Positions 4,926 to 26,326 of a DNA stretch of 34,062 bases are shown piece after piece (position 1 is the stretch's first letter; every line of letters begins with the position of its first letter). The notes under the pieces were generated by a model. That model was not told where the DNA came from and searched no databases. It saw nothing but the letters and a program-made list of their open reading frames with translations. The stretch is from positions 1-34,062 of the forward strand of contig JABIXB010000249.1 of NCBI GenBank assembly GCA_018666805.1, read 5' to 3'. The translations under genes were made by a program, and so were the position numbers. This DNA is from Rhodospirillaceae bacterium (GTDB taxonomy: Bacteria > Pseudomonadota > Alphaproteobacteria > UBA828).

Positions 4926-5924
4926 ATGCTGACCTTTATCGTCCGCCGCATGCTGATCATGATCCCGACCATGCTGGCGATCAGCATTCTCACTTTCATC
5001 ATCATCCAGCTGCCGCCGGGCGATTATCTGACCACTTATATTGCCGAGCTGCAGGCCCAGGGCGAAGGCTCCAACGTCGAGAAGATCGAATTTCTGCGCC
5101 AGCAATATGGCCTCGACAAGCCGATGGTCGAGCAATATGGCATTTGGCTGTTGGGCCTGTTGCAAGGCGATATGGGCTATTCGTTCGAATATAATCTGCC
5201 GGTCGACGAGGTTGTCGGCGACCGCCTGCTGCTGACTTTCATCGTCTCCTTCACCACCATCATCTTCACCTGGATCGTGTCCTTTCCGATCGGTGTCTAT
5301 TCCGCCACCCACCAATACAGCGCCGGCGATCACAGCCTGACCTTCCTCGGCTTTCTCGGCCTGGCGACGCCCAATTTTCTGCTCGCCCTGGTTTTGCTCT
5401 ATGTCGCCAATGTGGCGTTCGGCACCTCGATCGGCGGCTTGATGGACCCGGAATATCTCGGCCAGCCGTGGAGCGGCGGCAAGCTGCTTTCGGTGTTGGA
5501 ACATCTCTGGGTACCGGTGCTGGTGATCGGCACCTCGAACACCGCCGGCATGATCCGCCGCTTGCGCGCCAATTTGCTCGACGAACTGCAGAAGCAATAT
5601 GTTGTCACCGGCCGCGCCAAAGGCCTGCCGCCAGGGAAACTGCTGATCAAATATCCGCTGCGCATGGCGCTCAATCCGTTTATTTCCGACATCGGCAATA
5701 TTCTGCCGCAGGTCATATCGGGCGCCGCCATCGTCTCGGTGGTGCTGTCGCTGCCGACCACCGGGCCGATGCTGCTGGATGCGCTCAGGACACAAGATAT
5801 GTATCTCGCCGGCTCGTTCCTGATGTTCATGGCCTTCCTCACCGTGATCGGCGTATTTATCTCCGACATTCTGTTGGCCGTGCTTGATCCGCGCATCCGT
5901 CTCTCCGGCGGCGTCACGCGATGA
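4926..5924 (+). CDS. ABC transporter permease, DppB/OppB type
   Basis: A 332-residue inner-membrane protein. It has an N-terminal first helix (VRRMLIMIPTMLAISILTFI), a periplasmic loop with the family LRQQYGLDKP segment and the GDMGYS motif, then five further hydrophobic helices. The cytoplasmic EAA loop that contacts the ATPase is visible as QYVVTGRAKGLPPGKLLIKYPLR. Its length is typical of DppB/OppB. It overlaps the next permease gene by four bases (ATGA), showing translational coupling. It is 37 bases downstream of the TylF-like gene. Together with the partner permease it forms the channel of a peptide/oligosaccharide importer; the ATPase subunits are not encoded in this window. Confidence 0.9.
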   Translation: MLTFIVRRMLIMIPTMLAISILTFIIIQLPPGDYLTTYIAELQAQGEGSNVEKIEFLRQQYGLDKPMVEQYGIWLLGLLQGDMGYSFEYNLPVDEVVGDRLLLTFIVSFTTIIFTWIVSFPIGVYSATHQYSAGDHSLTFLGFLGLATPNFLLALVLLYVANVAFGTSIGGLMDPEYLGQPWSGGKLLSVLEHLWVPVLVIGTSNTAGMIRRLRANLLDELQKQYVVTGRAKGLPPGKLLIKYPLRMALNPFISDIGNILPQVISGAAIVSVVLSLPTTGPMLLDALRTQDMYLAGSFLMFMAFLTVIGVFISDILLAVLDPRIRLSGGVTR

Positions 5925-7126
5925 GCGAACGAGACCAGAATAACGGTGGCACTGGCGGGGGTGGACCGGAGTCCTCTGGGCCGCTTAAGCATTTCGTCAG
6001 CGACGCGCCCTTCGATCCCTATTCGACCGCCGCCCTCACGCCCGAGCAGGAACGCTTCTACATGGCCTCGCAATGGCAAATGATGTGGTGGAAGCTGAAA
6101 CGCCATCGCATTGCCGTCATTGCCGGCATCTTCCTGTTGGTCCTCTATGGCGTCATCGTCATCGCCGAATTCGTCGCGCCCTACAATCTGCACAGCCGCG
6201 ATGTCGACCATATCTACGCGCCGCCGCAAGCCGTGCAATTGTTCCACGAAGGCGAATTGCGCGCGCCCTTCGTCTACGGCTTCAAATATCACCTCGATAT
6301 GGAGAATTTGCAGCGTATCTATGAGCGCAATACATCTGAAATCCACACCATCCGCTGGTTTTGCCTCGGCGATGAATATAAATTCTGGGGCCTGATACCG
6401 GGGCGCTTCCACTTTGTCTGCCCGGCCGAAGACGGCACCCTGTTCCTGTTCGGTACCGACCGCCTTGGGCGCGATATGTTTTCGCGCGTCATTGCAGGCG
6501 CGCGCATTTCGCTCACCGTCGGCCTGATCGGCATTAGTATTAGTTTTCTCCTCGGCCTCATTCTGGGCGGCATTTCGGGCTATTACGGCGGCTGGGTCGA
6601 TACCATCATCCAGCGCTTTATCGAGATCATCCGCTCCTTCCCCGAACTGCCGCTGTGGATGGCGCTCTCGGCCGCGTTGCCGGTGACCTGGTCGCCAATC
6701 GTGGTTTATTTCGGCATCACAATTATTTTAGGATTGATCGACTGGACCGGCCTTGCGCGCGGTGTGCGCTCGAAGCTCTTGGCGCTCAGGGAAGAGGATT
6801 TCGCCACTGCCGCAATGCTGTTGGGCGCGCGCCCGAGGCGCGTGATCGGCCGCCACCTTATTCCGAGCTTCATGAGCCACCTAATCGCCTCGGCGACACT
6901 CTCGATCCCCTCGATGATCCTGGGTGAGACGGCGCTGTCCTTCCTCGGCCTTGGCCTGCGTCCGCCAATTACCAGTTGGGGCGTTCTCCTCAACGAATCG
7001 CAGAATATCAACGCGGTCGCGCTCTATCCCTGGCTGATGCTGCCGGTGGTGCCGGTTATCCTCGTCGTCCTCGCCTTTAATTTTCTCGGCGACGGCCTGC
7101 GCGACGCCGCCGATCCTTATAAATAG
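5921..7126 (+). CDS. ABC transporter permease, DppC/OppC type, with enlarged periplasmic loop
   Basis: A 401-residue permease. After about 60 cytoplasmic residues there is a first helix (about 65-88), then an unusually long periplasmic stretch of about 95 residues, then the usual FGTDRLGRDMFSRVIAGAR entry into the transmembrane domain with four to five helices. The EAA loop is visible as EEDFATAAMLLGARPRRVIGRHLIP. Typical DppC/OppC proteins are near 300 residues, so the extra length lies in the N-terminal tail and the loop between helix 1 and the GTDxxGRD motif. Longer versions occur in some Yej-like and oligosaccharide systems. Translation is coupled to the upstream permease. The tail is rich in glycine (GGTGGGGPE). 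Confidence 0.88.
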   Translation: MSERDQNNGGTGGGGPESSGPLKHFVSDAPFDPYSTAALTPEQERFYMASQWQMMWWKLKRHRIAVIAGIFLLVLYGVIVIAEFVAPYNLHSRDVDHIYAPPQAVQLFHEGELRAPFVYGFKYHLDMENLQRIYERNTSEIHTIRWFCLGDEYKFWGLIPGRFHFVCPAEDGTLFLFGTDRLGRDMFSRVIAGARISLTVGLIGISISFLLGLILGGISGYYGGWVDTIIQRFIEIIRSFPELPLWMALSAALPVTWSPIVVYFGITIILGLIDWTGLARGVRSKLLALREEDFATAAMLLGARPRRVIGRHLIPSFMSHLIASATLSIPSMILGETALSFLGLGLRPPITSWGVLLNESQNINAVALYPWLMLPVVPVILVVLAFNFLGDGLRDAADPYK

Positions 7127-15999: not shown

Positions 16000-17940
16000 T
16001 TAATCTGTCGCGAAATTCTCTTCGATATGAGCGACCAGCGCGGCGACGCTTTGCTCCTCCGACAGGCCATTGGTGTCGATAACCAGTTCCTGTTCTTCCG
16101 GTGCTTCATAAGGTGCGGAAATGCCGGTGAATTCTGGAATGTCGCCGGCCCGCGCTTTTTGGTACAGGCCCTTTGGGTCACGGCTTTCGCACGTCTCAAG
16201 CGAGGCCTTTACATAAACTTCATGGAACGCACCTTCTGCACGACGCTCAACTGCTTCGCGCGCGCGCACGCGGTCCGAACGGTAGGGCGAAATAAAGGCG
16301 GTGAGAACGATAAAGCCGGCATCGGCAAAGAGCGCCGCGACCTCACCGACGCGGCGAATATTTTCCGCCCGGTCTTCCGGCGAGAAACTTAGGTTTGCGT
16401 TGAGCCCGCCGCGCACATTGTCGCCGTCGAGCACATAGACTTGGTAGCCCTTCTGGAAGAGCTGCTTTTCCGCTTCCAGCGCGATCGTGGTTTTGCCCGA
16501 GCCGGAGAGCCCGGTGAACCATAAAACGCCGCCCTTGTGGCCGTTGCGCTGGCGCCGCGCGGCATGGGAAATGCCGTAATCGACAGCCGTGATGTTGCTC
16601 GATTTGCCGGTGATGAGTTGGCGCTGATCGGGATAACCGCGCATCGAGATAATGCCGCCGCCGGCGATATCGTAGCCATCGACGAGGACGAAACGGCCGC
16701 TGCGTTGGTTGTTGCCAAACTCGTCCAAAGCCAGCATGGCGCGGCTGCGCAAAACGACCTCACCGACACCGTTGCGCTCGATCGACGCGTTGCCGGAAGC
16801 AGCTTCGGTCATGGCGAGATCGTCGATATCAATAATGCGGTCGATCGACTGCACCGTCACCGGCGCCTCAAGCGTGCCGAGCTTGAGCTTGTATTGTTTG
16901 CCCGTGGTGAGCGGCTCGCGGCCGAGCCAGAACAGGTGGCCGCGGAAGACGTTCGATTCGAGCGGCGGCTGGACAACATGGCTGATCATCTCGCCACGCT
17001 CGACAAAAATCTGCTCGTCCAATATCAGCCCGACCGATTGACTGGCCTCGGCGCTGGCACGGCCATCCGAATCCGGCCAGCTTTCAATCCGTTGCAGCCG
17101 CGCGCGTTTGTTGGAGGGCGAGAACAGCAGCTCATCGCCGACCTTCAATTTACCCGATTCGATCCGCCCGGCGATGATCCGGCGGTCGTCAAAATGATAG
17201 ACATCCTGCACCGGCATGCGGAGCGCCGCCTCGGAATCGGCCTCCGGCAACTGGATGGCGTCGAGCGCCTCGGTCACGGTTGGCCCGTCATACCAAGGGC
17301 TTCTCTCAGACCGAATATCTATATTGTCGCCGTCGCGCGCCGAGACCGGAACGACGTGGCTCGGCGTGATACCGAGCTCGGCGAGATAATCGCGCATGTC
17401 GGCTTCGACGGCGGCAAAACGCGCCGCGTCGAAATTGACCGCATCCATTTTGTTGACCGCGATGACGATGCGGCTGAGGCCGAGCAGATGGAGGAAGTAG
17501 GCATGCCGGCGCGACTGCTCGCGCACGCCTTCGCCGGCATCGATAACCAGCAGCGCCGCCGCGCAGGACGCCGCACCGCTCACCATGTTCTTGACGAACT
17601 CGCGGTGGCCCGGCGCATCGACAATCACATAATCGCGCTTTTTGGTGCTGAACCAGATATGCGCGGCATCGATGGTAATTGCCTGATCGCGCTCGGCCTG
17701 GAAGGCATCCATGACAAAGGCCCACTCGAAAGCCATGCCACGCCGTTCGCACATCTTCTCAATCGCCTCGACCTTGCCGTCCGGCAGCGTGCCGGTATCG
17801 TGCAGCAGGCGGCCGACCAGGGTGGATTTGCCGTGATCGACATGGCCGACAATGGCGATATCGAGGCGCTGGCCGGAACGCGCGCCGGCCTCCTCGGCAC
17901 TGTCGGTGAAAATTTCAAACTTGCGCGGTGTCTTGCTCAT
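16000..17940 (-). CDS. cysNC: Bifunctional sulfate adenylyltransferase GTPase subunit / APS kinase (CysN-CysC fusion, NodQ type)
   Basis: A 646-residue fusion. The N-terminal EF-Tu-like GTPase has GHVDHGKST (residues 32-40), DAPGHREF and NKMD; beta-barrel domains follow to about residue 440. The C-terminal APS kinase has its P-loop GLSGSGKTT at 477-485, then [11 protein letters not shown] and the [29 protein letters not shown] stretch typical of CysC. With CysD it converts sulfate and ATP to APS (driven by GTP) and then to PAPS. It is the last gene of the cluster, 9 bases after cysD. As no PAPS reductase is nearby and sulfotransferases are, the product probably feeds sulfation, as with NodPQ in rhizobia. 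Confidence 0.95.
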
Positions 17941-17949
17941 CTCGCGCCC

Positions 17950-18747
17950 CTACATATATCCGTCGGCGCGCAGGCGCTCGAACGAATCTTCCGCTTCGTG
18001 ATCCATCGCGCGCCCGGCGCGCTCGGCTTCTGTCGTCACCCTGAGCTCGGCGATAATCTCGTCAATGGTCAGCGCCTCGCTAACGATCGGCGAGGTGATA
18101 TCTTCATCGCCGAGCGAGCGGTAGCGCTTGCCGTCGCGCGCGAAATAGAGCGACACGGTTGGGATATTCTCGCGCTGGGTATAAAGCCAGACATCGATTT
18201 CAGACCAATGCAGCAGCGGATGGACCCGGACATGGGTGCCGGGCGGAAAATCGGTCTTGAACTGATCCCAGAATTCCGGCGGCTGATCGCGGAAATGCCA
18301 CTGCCCGGTTTCGCCGCGCGGGCTAAACACCCGCTCCTTGGCGCGCGTGCTCTCCTCGTCGCGCCGGATGCCGGCAAAAACACCGGTATAGCCTTCGCGC
18401 GCCAGCAGGGCTTTCAGGCCCTCGGTCTTGCGCGCGGCGGCGCGTGCCGCCGGCGGCAGGGTGGGATCCGTCTCTTCAATCGGCGGGCACAGGCCGGTGA
18501 CCAGATTGAGATCCCATTCCTTACTGTAGTGGTCGCGAAATTCGTACATTTCGGCGAATTTCTTTTCGGTATCGACATGCACCACCGGAAACGGCACATG
18601 GCCATAGAAAGCCTTGCGGGCAAGCCACAGCATGACGTTGGAATCTTTGCCAAGCGACCACAGCATGCCCAAACGCTCGAGCCGGTTATAGGCCTCGCGG
18701 ATAATGTAAATGCTTTGGCTCTCGAGAGTTTCCAGATGATCAAGCAT
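17950..18747 (-). CDS. cysD: Sulfate adenylyltransferase subunit 2 (CysD/NodP)
   Basis: A 265-residue protein. The PP-loop-like ATP-binding segment is SLGKDSNVML (residues 31-40), after LESQSIYIIREAY. Other hallmarks are VVHVDTEKKFAEMYEFRD, the RAKERVFSPRGETGQWHFRDQPPEFW stretch, HVRVHPLLHWSEIDVW and the C-terminal RAGRAMDHEAEDSFERLRADGYM, all of the CysD type. It forms the catalytic subunit with CysN and makes APS in the cytoplasm. ATG at 18747 is chosen; a GTG at 18756 is in frame. It sits between a sulfotransferase gene (55 bases upstream) and cysNC (9 bases downstream). Confidence 0.96.
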   Translation of the reverse strand: MLDHLETLESQSIYIIREAYNRLERLGMLWSLGKDSNVMLWLARKAFYGHVPFPVVHVDTEKKFAEMYEFRDHYSKEWDLNLVTGLCPPIEETDPTLPPAARAAARKTEGLKALLAREGYTGVFAGIRRDEESTRAKERVFSPRGETGQWHFRDQPPEFWDQFKTDFPPGTHVRVHPLLHWSEIDVWLYTQRENIPTVSLYFARDGKRYRSLGDEDITSPIVSEALTIDEIIAELRVTTEAERAGRAMDHEAEDSFERLRADGYM

Positions 18748-18802: not shown

Positions 18803-19639
18803 TTAATACCCTTTCGGCACATAGTCAAACCTTTCCATCTGCTCGCGGTGCACTTCGATCACACGGCGCACTTGCGCCGCGCTCAACTGCTTGCGCCAGC
18901 CGCCGGACTTGCCGGCGCGGAAAAAATTCTTCTGTACCGGCGTGCGCTCGACGAAGCCGGTTTGATCCTCCAAATCGCGCAATACTTTGAACGAGGAGAA
19001 TTCAATTGCCCGGCTCAACCGGTCTTGATCCGGCGGAAGACCCAGGAAACCAACAATCGCACCAAAGGTTGCAAGCGGCTCTGATACCATGTCTTCATAG
19101 CGCGCGATATGCAGCGCCGGATGCGTGACCTCCGTCCAGCTCGCAACATGGCTCGACCAGTCACTGTGATGTTCAGGCACGTTTTTATCGGTTGCCGGAG
19201 ACTCGAAGCCGTGTTCGGCCAAGAGAGCAATAACATCATCCACCTTCTGGCCGAGATGATCGGCATAGGAAAGCACAACATCGAGCGGATTGCGCACCAG
19301 ATATATCACACCGGCAGTAACGGCCCGGGTGATCATCGGCACGCCCGCTACCTGAACCAGTGCATTGTGGGTTTTCACCAGGGCGGAATCAGCGGTGCAT
19401 TCGGCAATTCGCGCATGCGCTTGCGGGCGCAACCGGGCCAGATCCGCCTGGCTGAATTCGGTGGCGGGACGCGGATCAATTTCCGTAAACCAGCGCGCGA
19501 TGCTATCGCCCGTGGTCAGCGCCGACATTTTGTTGATGTCCACCGGCTCTTGCGCGTCCGTCATATAGGTGACGAGAAACGCGCGCAACCAGGTGTTGCC
19601 GGATTTCGGATAGGAGGCGAGCCAAAGGATATTACCCAT
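18803..19639 (-). CDS. PAPS-dependent sulfotransferase (short form, active-site motifs intact)
   Basis: A 278-residue Sulfotransfer_1-type protein. The 5'-phosphosulfate loop is SYPKSGNTW (residues 9-17). The KTH motif, with the likely catalytic His91, is present in LVKTHNA. The 3'-phosphate motif is LVRNPLDVVLSY with Arg116 and Ser124. The C-terminal FFRAGKSGGWRKQLS matches the RxGxxGxWK/R motif of the family. It should transfer sulfate from PAPS to a hydroxyl group. No signal peptide or membrane segment was seen, so it acts in the cytoplasm on a precursor. It lies 18 bases after the TPR-methyltransferase gene and 55 bases before cysD. It is a paralogue of the product at 22360-23193. The acceptor is unknown. 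Confidence 0.92.
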   Translation of the reverse strand: MGNILWLASYPKSGNTWLRAFLVTYMTDAQEPVDINKMSALTTGDSIARWFTEIDPRPATEFSQADLARLRPQAHARIAECTADSALVKTHNALVQVAGVPMITRAVTAGVIYLVRNPLDVVLSYADHLGQKVDDVIALLAEHGFESPATDKNVPEHHSDWSSHVASWTEVTHPALHIARYEDMVSEPLATFGAIVGFLGLPPDQDRLSRAIEFSSFKVLRDLEDQTGFVERTPVQKNFFRAGKSGGWRKQLSAAQVRRVIEVHREQMERFDYVPKGY

Positions 19640-19657: not shown

Positions 19658-22267
19658 TCAAGCGCCGGCGGGCCCGCCGCGCGATTTGACCCAAAACTGA
19701 TACATGCCAATAAACATATTGGTTTCGTCCGCCTCAAAGTGGTGCCAATTGTCGAGATTGACGGCGCCGGGATCCTCGGGAAAACGCGCCCAGTAGCGAT
19801 CGATCAAGGTGTGGTCGCTCAACTCGAATCCCATGAATTCAAGATTTAGCGCGTCCAGGCACGTGCCGATCTCAGGCAGCGTAAAGCGATGTTCCTCGGC
19901 ATTGAAGAATAAACCGCGGCATTCCGAAAGGGTGAAAAAATCGCGGAGCGCCATGAGCCGCTTCAATGGCGCTGCGTCGGGCATGGCGAAAACTTGATGA
20001 CGAAATTCTCGAATACGCTCCGCCGGATCGCCGCCACCCGCCTGCAACTCCGCGCCTTGGCGAACAATTTCGGCCCGGGCCAATTCGCTGTAGAGGCCGA
20101 TCTTCATGACCCCGCCCGGCTTCAGCAAATCGCGTAAGATCTGCCATCCCGCCATCGGCTCCGCCATATGGTGCAGCACGCCAATACAATCGATCATGTC
20201 AAACCGTCGATCGCTCCCCGCCATTGCCAAAATATCGCCATGCAGCCATTCGATCCGGTCTACGCCCAACTCGCTTGCTTTACGCTTGCCATAAGCCAGG
20301 CCGGCGAGATTTAAATCCATCGCCACCACCCGCGCGTTGCGGTAACGCAGTGCCGACGCGACGGCTTGCGCGCCCGTGCCGCAGCCGGCGACCAGCATGT
20401 CGGGCTCTGGAGAAATGCTCAGACCTTCCATATTTGCGTAGGGCAATATCGCGCCGAGCACCGCGCCCAACGGCTTTGCGCTCAGCCGCGTTACACTGGT
20501 CCAGCGTGGATAGGGCAATGGCGCATCCTTACCGAGCCCCTGGCGTGGCGCTTCATCGCCGCTCTCAATGAGCTCACGAATGCTGCCCGCCAACACGCGC
20601 TCCGCCGCCGGTTCGCGAATTTGCTGGCGTATCAAGTGGCCAAAGGAATCATCCCGCGAAGCGCTTTCATGAGCCTCCAGAATGTCACTTTCCGCCAATC
20701 CGCCCAACGGGCGGTAGCAGGCGAATAGCGCGATTGTGGCGCGCGGCGGCTGTTCCTCGGGCTGGCGCAAGCGATTATCGATTTGCGTCTGCAAATCCGC
20801 TACCTGCGCCGCCTCATCGGCGCTTTCCAGGTAGACATAATCATTGAGAAAGCACTGGCGCGCCAAGGCACAGATGAAATCAAGCGTCACCTTGTTCATC
20901 TGCTCCGGCAGGCGGCCCGCCACGGCCAACGCCAAGAGGCTCTTGCGAATGGCAGTGAATAGAATTTCGAGCGGGCCATCCACCAACGGATTGCGCACCA
21001 ACAGGAGATTGGCAATGCCGCTACTGAGCGGTGCGAGAATTTCGCCCTTCTGCACCTCGGTTGCGCTGAGAGAGAAATCCCCCTGCCGCGCCGATTCGCT
21101 CAAGGACATCACTTGTTGAGCATTTCGCAACAAACGCGCGGCGGGCCCGCTCAGGGGCAGGTGATTAATCCCCTCAATTTTCAGACACCGTTCCAGGTCA
21201 TTCCATAATTGCGCATTCGCCGATAAATAAGCCGCCCCGCTCAAGCTATCGGCAAAAGACTGGGCGCGGTCCATATTATCGGGATCGATATCGAGGGCCC
21301 GGCGAAAACAGGAAATGGACTCTCCCCAATTTTCAAGCCGCCGTAAAACCGAGCCAAGATTCATATGCGCCGCAGCATTGAGCGGATCAAGTTCAGTGAC
21401 GCGCTGCAAAAGACGACGCGCCTCCTCCAGCCGTCCCTGATTGCGATAAATAACGGCGAGATCAATGAGCGAATTGGCGTTGTCCGGATCCAGATCCAGC
21501 GCCCGTTTAAATTCGGATGCCGCCTCCGCGTGGGCGCCCCTGGCATACAACACAGCGCCCAAATTGGTGCGCGCATTCACATCGTCGGGCTCCAGCGCCA
21601 CCGCCTCACGCAAAATATTCTCGGCCTCTGCCGCCTCGCCTAATTCCAGCAACAGCCCGCCCAGCGTTATGAGCGCCGCGCCATATTGCGGCGCGAGCGC
21701 CACCGCCGCCCGCGCTTCGCTGGTAGCCTCTTCCAGCCGCCCGCGCGCTTTCAAGGAAATTGCAAAATTATTCAACGCCGGGGCATATCTGGGATTGTTC
21801 TCGAGCGCCTGATGAATATGCGCCTCGGCCGCCTCAAGCTGTTCGGGCGTTGCCAGTAGAATTGCCGCGATGGCGTTGTGCGCTTCAAAATTTCGCGGCT
21901 CCAGCGCGACCGCCCGGCGGAAAGCGGTGAGCGCCTTTTGCCCATCGCCCTGGGCACGCTGGGCCAAGCCGAGATTGTAATGCGCCTGACTGTTTTTCGG
22001 ATGAACGGCGATCGAGCGTTCAAACAATTCGATTGCTTCATCGCCGCGCCCGGTTTGCATTTTACTGACGCCCAGGAACTGCAGCGCATCGGCATGGCGC
22101 GGCTCGCGCGTGAGGACGGATTGATAAGCCGCCATTGCCTGATCGATGCGGCCTTCACGATGAAAGCCGACAGCGCGCTGCATCATATCGCGCAATTCCG
22201 GATCGGTGCTGCCCGGGGGAGCGCCGCGTGCTTGCGCCTCCTGACCGCGGCGCTCTTTTCTGTTCAT
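19658..22267 (-). CDS. TPR-repeat protein fused to a C-terminal SAM methyltransferase domain
   Basis: An 869-residue protein. Residues about 27-335 form roughly nine tetratricopeptide repeats with the usual NLG, A-x-x-x-F-x-x-A and LDP patterns. Residues about 340-610 form a helical middle region I do not recognise. A class I methyltransferase domain begins with DMLVAGCGTGAQAV (about 623-636), followed by VVAMDLNLAGLAYG, DMIDCIGVLHHM and LKPGGVMKIGLYS. ATG at 22267 is chosen because GGAGA lies about 6 bases upstream; the MNRKERR start is common in alphaproteobacterial TPR proteins. The longer open frame overlaps the upstream sulfotransferase and is unlikely. Its position between sulfotransferase genes suggests methylation and sulfation of the same product. 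No transmembrane helix was seen. Confidence 0.88.
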   Translation of the reverse strand: MNRKERRGQEAQARGAPPGSTDPELRDMMQRAVGFHREGRIDQAMAAYQSVLTREPRHADALQFLGVSKMQTGRGDEAIELFERSIAVHPKNSQAHYNLGLAQRAQGDGQKALTAFRRAVALEPRNFEAHNAIAAILLATPEQLEAAEAHIHQALENNPRYAPALNNFAISLKARGRLEEATSEARAAVALAPQYGAALITLGGLLLELGEAAEAENILREAVALEPDDVNARTNLGAVLYARGAHAEAASEFKRALDLDPDNANSLIDLAVIYRNQGRLEEARRLLQRVTELDPLNAAAHMNLGSVLRRLENWGESISCFRRALDIDPDNMDRAQSFADSLSGAAYLSANAQLWNDLERCLKIEGINHLPLSGPAARLLRNAQQVMSLSESARQGDFSLSATEVQKGEILAPLSSGIANLLLVRNPLVDGPLEILFTAIRKSLLALAVAGRLPEQMNKVTLDFICALARQCFLNDYVYLESADEAAQVADLQTQIDNRLRQPEEQPPRATIALFACYRPLGGLAESDILEAHESASRDDSFGHLIRQQIREPAAERVLAGSIRELIESGDEAPRQGLGKDAPLPYPRWTSVTRLSAKPLGAVLGAILPYANMEGLSISPEPDMLVAGCGTGAQAVASALRYRNARVVAMDLNLAGLAYGKRKASELGVDRIEWLHGDILAMAGSDRRFDMIDCIGVLHHMAEPMAGWQILRDLLKPGGVMKIGLYSELARAEIVRQGAELQAGGGDPAERIREFRHQVFAMPDAAPLKRLMALRDFFTLSECRGLFFNAEEHRFTLPEIGTCLDALNLEFMGFELSDHTLIDRYWARFPEDPGAVNLDNWHHFEADETNMFIGMYQFWVKSRGGPAGA

Positions 22268-22359: not shown

Positions 22360-23193
22360 TCAGAAGCCGTCCGGAATATAACTGAATCGCTCCATTTGCT
22401 CCCCATGGGCCGCAATGATGCGGCGCACTTGATCGGCGCTTAGCACATCGCGCCATTGATCCGACGTGCCGGCACGCAACAACTTTCCCGCTGACGCAGA
22501 TTCCCCCTCCACGCCCGCTTCTTTTTCGCGCAAGGAAAGTTCGGCAAAGGAAGCAAAATGGATTGCCCGGGCCAGGCGCTCGCCCGGTGTATCGAAACCG
22601 AGAAACGTGGCCAACGGGCCAAAGGCATTTTCCGGCGCCAACAACATATCCTCATAGCGCAAGAGATGAAGGCCAGCATGGCGCTGGTAGGTCCAACTGA
22701 GAACATGGGTGGACCAACTGCCATGACACTCATAGGCAAATTGATCGCTGTTCTTCGATAAATATTCCGTCTCCAGCCGCGTGATTGCCTGGTCGATGGA
22801 TTGCCCCTGCGCGGCAGCCAAGGAGACGGCAAGGTCGAGCGGATTGCGGACGAGATAAATTGCCGCCGCCGTGTACTCCATGGTGATGGTTGGCGCGCCG
22901 CCGCTCTCCGCCAGTGCTGCGCGGGTACTGGCGAATACGTTGTCGGAGCGCAATTCGGTGATCGCCTTGTGCGCCGCGCCGCGGCGTCCAGCCGCCTCCT
23001 GCCAGGTCCATTCGCTGAGCGGGCGGGCCCCTGGTGTCATAAAGTGAATCGCGGCGGATTCCGATGCGCAAAACCCGCTAATCTCTTCGCGATTAGGGGT
23101 ATGGCGCGCATCGCTCAACAAATTATGGAGGAAGGATTGCAGCCAGATATTGCCTGACCTGGGATAGGAAGCCAGCCAGATGATATTGCCCAT
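22360..23193 (-). CDS. Sulfotransferase-like protein with altered active-site motifs
   Basis: A 277-residue paralogue of the sulfotransferase at 18803-19639: both begin MGNI, share SYPxSGN, IYLVRNPLD and an identical layout, and end in H-x-EQMERF-x-Y-x-P. Here the PAPS loop is SYPRSGNIW, with Arg12 for Lys and Ile16 for Thr. The KTH motif with the catalytic His is replaced by STR (residues 89-91, bases 22921-22929). The 3'-phosphate motif LVRNPLDLAVSL keeps Arg and Ser. It may be weakly active, act on a special acceptor, or be a non-catalytic partner. The reading frame is intact. It lies 55 bases after the TPR-sulfotransferase gene and 92 bases before the TPR-methyltransferase gene. Confidence 0.85.
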   Translation of the reverse strand: MGNIIWLASYPRSGNIWLQSFLHNLLSDARHTPNREEISGFCASESAAIHFMTPGARPLSEWTWQEAAGRRGAAHKAITELRSDNVFASTRAALAESGGAPTITMEYTAAAIYLVRNPLDLAVSLAAAQGQSIDQAITRLETEYLSKNSDQFAYECHGSWSTHVLSWTYQRHAGLHLLRYEDMLLAPENAFGPLATFLGFDTPGERLARAIHFASFAELSLREKEAGVEGESASAGKLLRAGTSDQWRDVLSADQVRRIIAAHGEQMERFSYIPDGF

Positions 23194-25063: not shown

Positions 25064-25086
25064 GGGGGCGGCCAAAGGCCGCCCCC
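25057..25086 (-). terminator. Rho-independent terminator of the porin gene
   Basis: GGGGGCGGCC (25064-25073) and GGCCGCCCCC (25077-25086) form a perfect 10-base stem with a 3-base loop. On the minus strand it is followed directly by seven T (25057-25063). It lies 26 bases beyond the porin stop codon, in the correct orientation, and separates the porin from the sulfation cluster. Confidence 0.95.
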
Positions 25087-25111: not shown

Positions 25112-26260
25112 TTAGAAGTTCAACGCAGCGCTCATCTTGAATTCGGTGTAATCATTGTCCAAACCGCCTGCCGTGCCGTTGTCATATTCGCCCTTGGCAA
25201 TTGCGGCACCGACGTCGATACCCGGGCCCAACACATAGGTTGCGTTAAGCTCGTAAATCTTCAGCTCGTCGGTTGTGTTGTCAGCAGCGATGTCGAGCTC
25301 GGCTTGACCATATTGCAGGCCAACGCCAAACGGACCATGCCACCAGGCAACGCCGAGGTCGAAGTCTTCACGGTCACGGCTGGAGCCGTTCGCGTTGAAG
25401 GTGGTCTGCTCGGTCTCGAGCCAACCGCCGCCAATGGACCATTCGCCAAAGCCGACGGAACCACCGATCTGGGTCGAATCGACATTGTTGTCACAAGTCT
25501 GAACAGCTGCGGTGGCGCCGCATTGCTCAACAACATAGCCTTCCCAACCAAGCATAAGACCAAGCGAGACACTGCCGAAGGTTTTATGGAATTCAGCCGA
25601 AACCGATGCGTTGTTCTGGAAGCCAGAAGCCGCATCGCCAGCGTTACCGCCATATTGACCATTATTGCCGTCTTCCGGCGAATAGCTCGCGCCGAGGCGG
25701 AAGCCGTTAAAGGTCGGCGAGTAATAGACCAGCTTGATGTTGTCTTCGTTGCCGAGACCATCATCATAGGTACGGACGTTGAAGAAACCGGCTGCGTTGC
25801 CCGGATTGGCAAAGATAAAGAACGGCGAGTTGACGCCGAAATTATAGTTGCCGCTCGGTGCAAATACCGTCATTGACTGACGTGCGCTTTCAATCTGGCC
25901 GATACGGAGTAGGCCGAAGCCACCGCTGAAGAAAACAAAGCGTTCGTCGAGAGCGGCACTACCGTTCGCCGCCGTACCGCCGCCATTGCCTTCGATGTTG
26001 GCATTGAAGCCGGCAGTGATGCCGTTATCAAGCGTCGTCTTGCCCGAAACAACAATCTCGATATCGTTGCCGAGCGTGAAGCTTTGCGCGCCTTCGGCAA
26101 ACTCGCCGTCATTATCGTCTTGGCTGATCAAGCCCATGGCAGAGCGGAAATAGCCGCCGACGCCAGCTGTGATTGGCTCTTCAGCCGCCTGGGCCACACC
26201 GCCTGAAACAACGCCAGCGGCGATGAGAGCGGTCGTCCCCAATAAAAGTTTTTTCTTCAT
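25112..26260 (-). CDS. Outer-membrane porin (alphaproteobacterial general porin type)
   Basis: A 382-residue protein with a signal peptide (MKKKLLLGTTALIAAGVVSG, cleavage after AQA, residue 24). The mature chain has alternating beta-strand pattern, many Gly/Asn/Asp, FTLGNDIEIVVSGKTTLDNGITAGF near the start, LLRIGQIESA (the usual FGxLxxGQ-like strand) and a C-terminal Phe (SAALNF), the outer-membrane insertion signal. Two cysteines (QCGATAAVQTC) may form a loop disulfide. It would form a trimeric diffusion channel for small solutes. The ATG at 26260 has a very strong GGAGGAGG 9 bases upstream, and it has its own terminator, both fitting a highly expressed, single-gene unit. Confidence 0.93.
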   Translation of the reverse strand: MKKKLLLGTTALIAAGVVSGGVAQAAEEPITAGVGGYFRSAMGLISQDDNDGEFAEGAQSFTLGNDIEIVVSGKTTLDNGITAGFNANIEGNGGGTAANGSAALDERFVFFSGGFGLLRIGQIESARQSMTVFAPSGNYNFGVNSPFFIFANPGNAAGFFNVRTYDDGLGNEDNIKLVYYSPTFNGFRLGASYSPEDGNNGQYGGNAGDAASGFQNNASVSAEFHKTFGSVSLGLMLGWEGYVVEQCGATAAVQTCDNNVDSTQIGGSVGFGEWSIGGGWLETEQTTFNANGSSRDREDFDLGVAWWHGPFGVGLQYGQAELDIAADNTTDELKIYELNATYVLGPGIDVGAAIAKGEYDNGTAGGLDNDYTEFKMSAALNF

Positions 26261-26269
26261 GTGTTCAAT

Positions 26270-26277
26270 CCTCCTCC
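26270..26277 (-). promoter_or_regulatory. Strong ribosome binding site of the porin
   Basis: On the minus strand the sequence is GGAGGAGG, 9 bases before the ATG at 26260. It decides this start over upstream in-frame codons and is stronger than any other in the window. Confidence 0.85.
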
Positions 26278-26326
26278 GGAGAGATATGGTTTCCCAGGTC
26301 ATCGCTGGCAGGGCCAGACCGCCTGG

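Follow-up and report, generated by a model that had tools for sequence, protein, structure and literature searches.

Does a sulfotransferase that has lost its catalytic histidine still transfer sulfate, and if it does not, why is its gene kept intact within a run of genes devoted to sulfation? The question is raised by ST_A, encoded in a 34,062-nucleotide stretch of DNA from a Rhodospirillaceae bacterium (the window), where the KTH motif of the family is replaced by STR.

The locus and its neighbours

The features on which the analysis draws, all on the minus strand, are the following:

16000..17940, minus strand: cysNC, sulfate adenylyltransferase GTPase fused to APS kinase (makes PAPS)
17950..18744, minus strand: cysD, sulfate adenylyltransferase small subunit
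18803..19639, minus strand: ST_B, paralogue of ST_A, 278 aa, with intact PKSGNTW, KTH, RNP..S and RxG motifs
19658..22267, minus strand: TPR and methyltransferase fusion, between ST_A and ST_B
22360..23193, minus strand: ST_A, degenerate PF00685 sulfotransferase (STR, K12R, T16I, R19Q), 277 aa, intact ORF
22474..22593, minus strand: ST_A residues 201-240, which include the loop-3 lid; constraint lost in comparison with the active paralogue ST_B
22921..22929, minus strand: ST_A codons AGT ACC CGC, residues 89-91, STR (KTH in homologues)
23134..23163, minus strand: ST_A residues 11-20, PRSGNIWLQS, the altered 5'-phosphosulfate loop
23249..24949, minus strand: TPR and Sulfotransfer_3 fusion
25064..25086, minus strand: rho-independent terminator (10 GC pairs, then a T run), after the porin and before the sulfotransferase genes
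25112..26302, minus strand: porin (Porin_4), upstream of the sulfotransferase genes, with the strong terminator between

Read along the minus strand, the order is thus porin, GC-rich terminator, TPR-Sulfotransfer_3, ST_A, TPR-methyltransferase, ST_B, cysD and cysNC. CysD and CysN-CysC make PAPS, and the locus therefore combines a PAPS supply with sulfotransferases. Promoter-like and most terminator-like matches were no commoner than in shuffled sequence.

The arrangement recurs across Alphaproteobacteria, where a porin, tandem sulfotransferases numbering from one to about ten and usually cysD-cysNC are located between leuS/DUF3576 and thiE. Most related loci in the comparison have the porin next to sulfotransferase genes, an adjacency which suggests a functional link, either with the substrate or through anion uptake. 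In one alphaproteobacterial family (f36; L020, L021, L023 and L198-L206), up to about ten tandem PF00685-type sulfotransferases lie beside the porin, and the TPR-methyltransferase fusion (19658-22267) was found inside the sulfation gene run of four same-genus genomes (G000, which is the window's own genome, G007, G008 and G009). A literature search on the sulfotransferase/cysDNC/porin locus returned no match.

Residues lost and residues kept

ST_A is 43% identical to ST_B over its full length and passes the cutoff of the PF00685 Pfam profile, with a value of 5.3e-22 (3e-26 for ST_B). The first-pass annotation of this DNA had described STR in place of KTH at residues 89-91, Lys12 to Arg and Thr16 to Ile against the paralogue at 18803-19639, in an intact reading frame. 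All of these substitutions were seen again in the alignment, and the 277-aa ORF at 22360-23193 is unbroken, with the correction that it lies on the minus strand. By using 134 intact homologues as reference, it was found that 10 of the 74 columns conserved at 85% or more are changed both in ST_A and in its orthologue from genome G007, namely T16, R19, K89, H91, G110, H128, F228, E230, F238 and F239. Judged by homology to SULTs, these take in the catalytic pair, the lid and the part of the PAPS site that faces the sulfate; residue roles were assigned through established SULT knowledge and published work (PMC8134075, PMC6969939). Thr16 is Ile in both orthologues and Lys12 is Arg in G000 and Lys in G007, so that K12R is private to the window's genome. 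The catalytic His of KTH is Arg in the G000 protein and Gln in that of G007.

The ST_A orthologues show no change at W17, R116, S124, Y180, F216, R240 and G242, the positions for 3'-phosphate and adenine, and W247 is also kept in ST_A. The earlier claim that the 3'-phosphate motif is retained was thus borne out by R116, S124, R240, G242 and W247, though the FF preceding R240 (238-239) has become LL.

These losses are rare. KTH or KxH, PKSGNTW and R19 occur in nearly all homologues, in a first set of 138 and then in 233 non-redundant sequences. Among these 233, mostly alphaproteobacterial, another residue stands in place of the KTH Lys in 5, of His91 in 3 and of Thr16 in 4 (a count which leaves aside one more row with a damaged N-terminus). 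The three sequences lacking His91 are ST_A, its G007 orthologue (STQ) and one copy from G261 (TTR), and Gln at R19 likewise occurs only in the two ST_A orthologues and in a single copy from G261.

History of the loss

The orthologue in G007, a genome of the same genus, is 66% identical to ST_A, occupies the same gene order and shares T16I, R19Q, K89S, F238L, F239L and the loss of His91. Positional orthologues from G004 and G012, of the same family and other genera, have an intact KTH. In the tree, the ST_A pair and these KTH-bearing copies form one clade with support of 96/93, and the ST_A clade carries a deletion of one residue that is unique among the aligned homologues. The proposal that ST_A is a recent copy of the same-genus or neighbouring ST_B was rejected (AU p 0.008). 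A scan of genome contigs found no relative closer than about 43%.

Since the sister-genus orthologues keep KTH and G007 shares the loss, the loss is derived and arose on one stem branch. This branch is long and accelerated, at 0.9-1.2 changes per column; the ST_A tips measure 0.25-0.31, which is close to the 0.07-0.29 of same-genus ST_B copies. The last step at His91 may have happened twice, Arg and Gln each being one base from His. The first-pass annotation had asked whether orthologues keep STR, and had held that orthologues with KTH would point to a local error or decay. The nearest orthologue does share the loss of His91, albeit as STQ, whereas KTH is found only in the sister genera, where it marks the loss as derived rather than as an error.

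The distribution of ST_A within the genus is uneven. In G009 the flanking genes are directly joined, with ST_A absent and ST_B kept; this absence is a secondary loss, and the role of ST_A is thus dispensable and not universally required. The contig of G008 ends before the ST_A position, and the incomplete assemblies of G005 and G006 hold no ST_A copy and no cysD. Outside the genus, ST_A is present in G004 as two partial copies, almost the same in sequence and each at the end of a contig (L029:4241-4795 and L030:1-618), with KTH in the one that covers the motif; they are either variants from different strains or the product of a recent tandem duplication.

Selection after the loss

Pairwise comparison of G000 and G007 gave dN/dS values of 0.235/1.54 for ST_A and 0.234/1.28 for ST_B. 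With a codon model that fits omega by branch class, written for the present analysis, omega on the stem was at the upper bound (at or above 1) and not distinguishable from 1, while after the loss it was 0.126 on the ST_A tips and 0.137 on the ST_B branches, with no difference between them (p 0.73). A tip omega of 1 was rejected (2dL 139, about 5e-32), in a test based on one orthologous pair, as only two ST_A pseudo-orthologues are known, with synonymous sites near saturation. Neutral simulation at 0.4-0.75 substitutions per site led to an expectation of 6-9 stops per lineage; neither stops nor frameshifts were found in ST_A of either G000 or G007.

The same locus offers a control within G007, where the TPR-sulfotransferase copy at L026:7856-8623, upstream of the ST_A orthologue, is a frameshifted pseudogene with stops; it has decayed while ST_A is intact, and decay is therefore visible at this locus where constraint is absent. 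This pseudogene has no sulfotransferase domain, and a second, intact copy lies downstream. Since the loss, ST_A has been under purifying selection of about the same strength as that on its active paralogue, and the dN/dS check proposed earlier thus returned selection instead of decay.

Predicted structure and the lid

AF2 models of ST_A and ST_B reached pLDDT values of 89.5 and 93.7, respectively, with the same order of elements in both, and the best PDB matches are SULT-fold proteins. The models differ at residues 221-240, where the score falls to 67 and 49 in the ST_A blocks, compared with 94 and 89 in ST_B, and the segment is poorly ordered in ST_A. Identity between orthologues over these residues is 20% for ST_A and 70% for ST_B, a local drop with a permutation p of 1e-4. 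The segment overlaps the counterpart of loop 3 of SULT1A1 (residues 235-263), a substrate-binding loop adjoining the PAPS-binding RKG motif (PMC6969939). In the alignment with SULT1B1, His158 of ST_A stands opposite the Tyr of YGSW. Extra conservation of ST_A residues 84-200 was considered as a new interaction surface and set aside as nominal only (Fisher p 0.026, post hoc; permutation maximum p 0.30).

Catalysis and rival explanations

In AtSOT18, the substitutions Lys93Ala, Thr97Ala and His155Ala each left no detectable activity (PMC5482895). The Lys of KTH, however, is Ser in human SULT2A1 and Ala in SULT6B1 (PMC7694633), so K89S alone would not be inactivating and the argument is carried by H91R/Q and T16I. 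Mouse SULT2A8, the one active SULT without this His that the analysis encountered, bears directly on the matter: Leu (Leu99) replaces the His, and His48 of the phosphosulfate loop is used instead (PMC8134075). Like ST_A, SULT2A8 lacks the canonical catalytic His and otherwise keeps its PAP(S) site; unlike ST_A, it has His48 at the position of Thr16 and retains the P-loop Lys. This position is Ile16 in both ST_A orthologues, and a rescue of the SULT2A8 type was rejected. Because AtSOT18 cannot work without either the His or the Thr at these positions, and because Ile occupies the place at which SULT2A8 has its substitute His, ST_A is predicted to be unable to transfer sulfate. The earlier argument from KTH and the loop therefore holds for His91 and Thr16 and gives way for Lys89, which is not essential, and for the private K12R, and it has to accommodate an active SULT2A8 without the His.

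That ST_A retains sulfotransferase activity, its base having moved or being dispensable (through an acidic acceptor or substrate assistance) and its acceptor having changed, is unlikely, although this alternative has more in its favour than any other. Besides SULT2A8 and the tolerated replacements of the KTH Lys, it can draw on the intact 3'-phosphate and adenine residues, on Lys12 in G007, and on human SULT4A1 (1zd1), which like ST_A is a conserved SULT maintained by selection and was long held to be inactive, yet was later reported active (PMC7694633). SULT4A1, however, keeps His111 and Lys109, of which ST_A has neither equivalent, and the AtSOT18 mutants, Ile16, the disappearance of the otherwise invariant R19 and FF238-239 and the lost constraint on the lid all speak against retained activity. 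A decaying pseudogene that by chance is still open is considerably less probable. The long stem branch, the loss in G009 and the decayed TPR-sulfotransferase neighbour in G007 would agree with it, but an omega of 0.13 equal to that of the active paralogue, the rejection of neutrality and the uninterrupted frames in two lineages do not. Least probable of all, to the point of being negligible, is a sequencing or assembly error, or contamination: the draft assembly is fragmented (317 contigs), but the substitutions recur in an independent genome, at 66% protein identity and in the same gene order.

The explanation which we consider probable is that ST_A is a pseudo-sulfotransferase specific to its lineage, kept in a PAPS-dependent sulfation operon for a role other than catalysis. 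A duplicated PAPS-dependent sulfotransferase would have lost sulfuryl-transfer chemistry in one lineage: the acceptor base H91, Thr16, Arg19, Lys89 and conserved lid residues are gone, both the fold and the contacts to 3'-phosphate and adenine remain, and purifying selection would since have maintained the protein for another function. From the first-pass proposal of a non-catalytic protein beside the active enzyme, the shared loss and the dN/dS results uphold a maintained, probably non-catalytic paralogue next to an intact enzyme and PAPS-making genes. More tentatively, it might bind PAP(S) and/or the acceptor and work as a non-catalytic subunit, most likely serving the sulfotransferases of the same gene run as their partner or by holding a ligand.

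In other families of enzymes, pseudoenzymes have been studied thoroughly. In the full text of 5.39 million open papers, to which the search was directed, pseudo- or inactive sulfotransferases gave two incidental matches only, one from hormone biochemistry and one on a pseudohelicase. The loss in ST_A is real and conserved, in a narrow lineage. With dead and intact copies in one gene run with PAPS-making genes, and a still-intact orthologue in sister genera, its setting represents a natural before-and-after comparison for a sulfotransferase fold without catalysis.

Comparison with known systems

The nearest solved PAPS-dependent SULT-type proteins (PF00685) are Teg12/Teg14, StaL and SULT1B1. 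ST_A resembles them in its fold, in the N-terminal SYPxSGN.W loop and in the RNP..S and RxG...W segments, and differs from them by the absence of the catalytic His, Thr16 and Lys89 and by a divergent lid.

A second case of loss was observed in G261, a genome from another alphaproteobacterial family, where two adjoining degenerate copies (L120:4303-5091 and 5097-5930; C18) directly follow an intact KTH copy and two porins. One has TTR and destroyed PAPS motifs, the other STH and a PESGNKL loop. As in ST_A, active-site residues were lost independently beside an intact KTH copy; unlike ST_A, these copies occur in one genome only, their PAPS-loop and RxG motifs are damaged too, and cysD/cysNC are not adjacent. 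As a tentative proposal, in which we place less than even confidence, ST_A could be a PAP(S)-binding pseudo-sulfotransferase that serves the operon's active sulfotransferases as a non-catalytic subunit or as a PAP/PAPS sensor, a strategy that might have arisen more than once in alphaproteobacterial tandem loci.

For SULT dimers, cofactor-dependent communication between subunits has been proposed from simulations (PMC4492763), which is not evidence on ST_A itself. In trypanosomatid deoxyhypusine synthase, a dead paralogue activates its active sister by forming a complex (PMC3663545). That enzyme is unrelated and is likewise no evidence on ST_A; the two are alike, by analogy only, in that a catalytically dead paralogue has been retained beside an active one.
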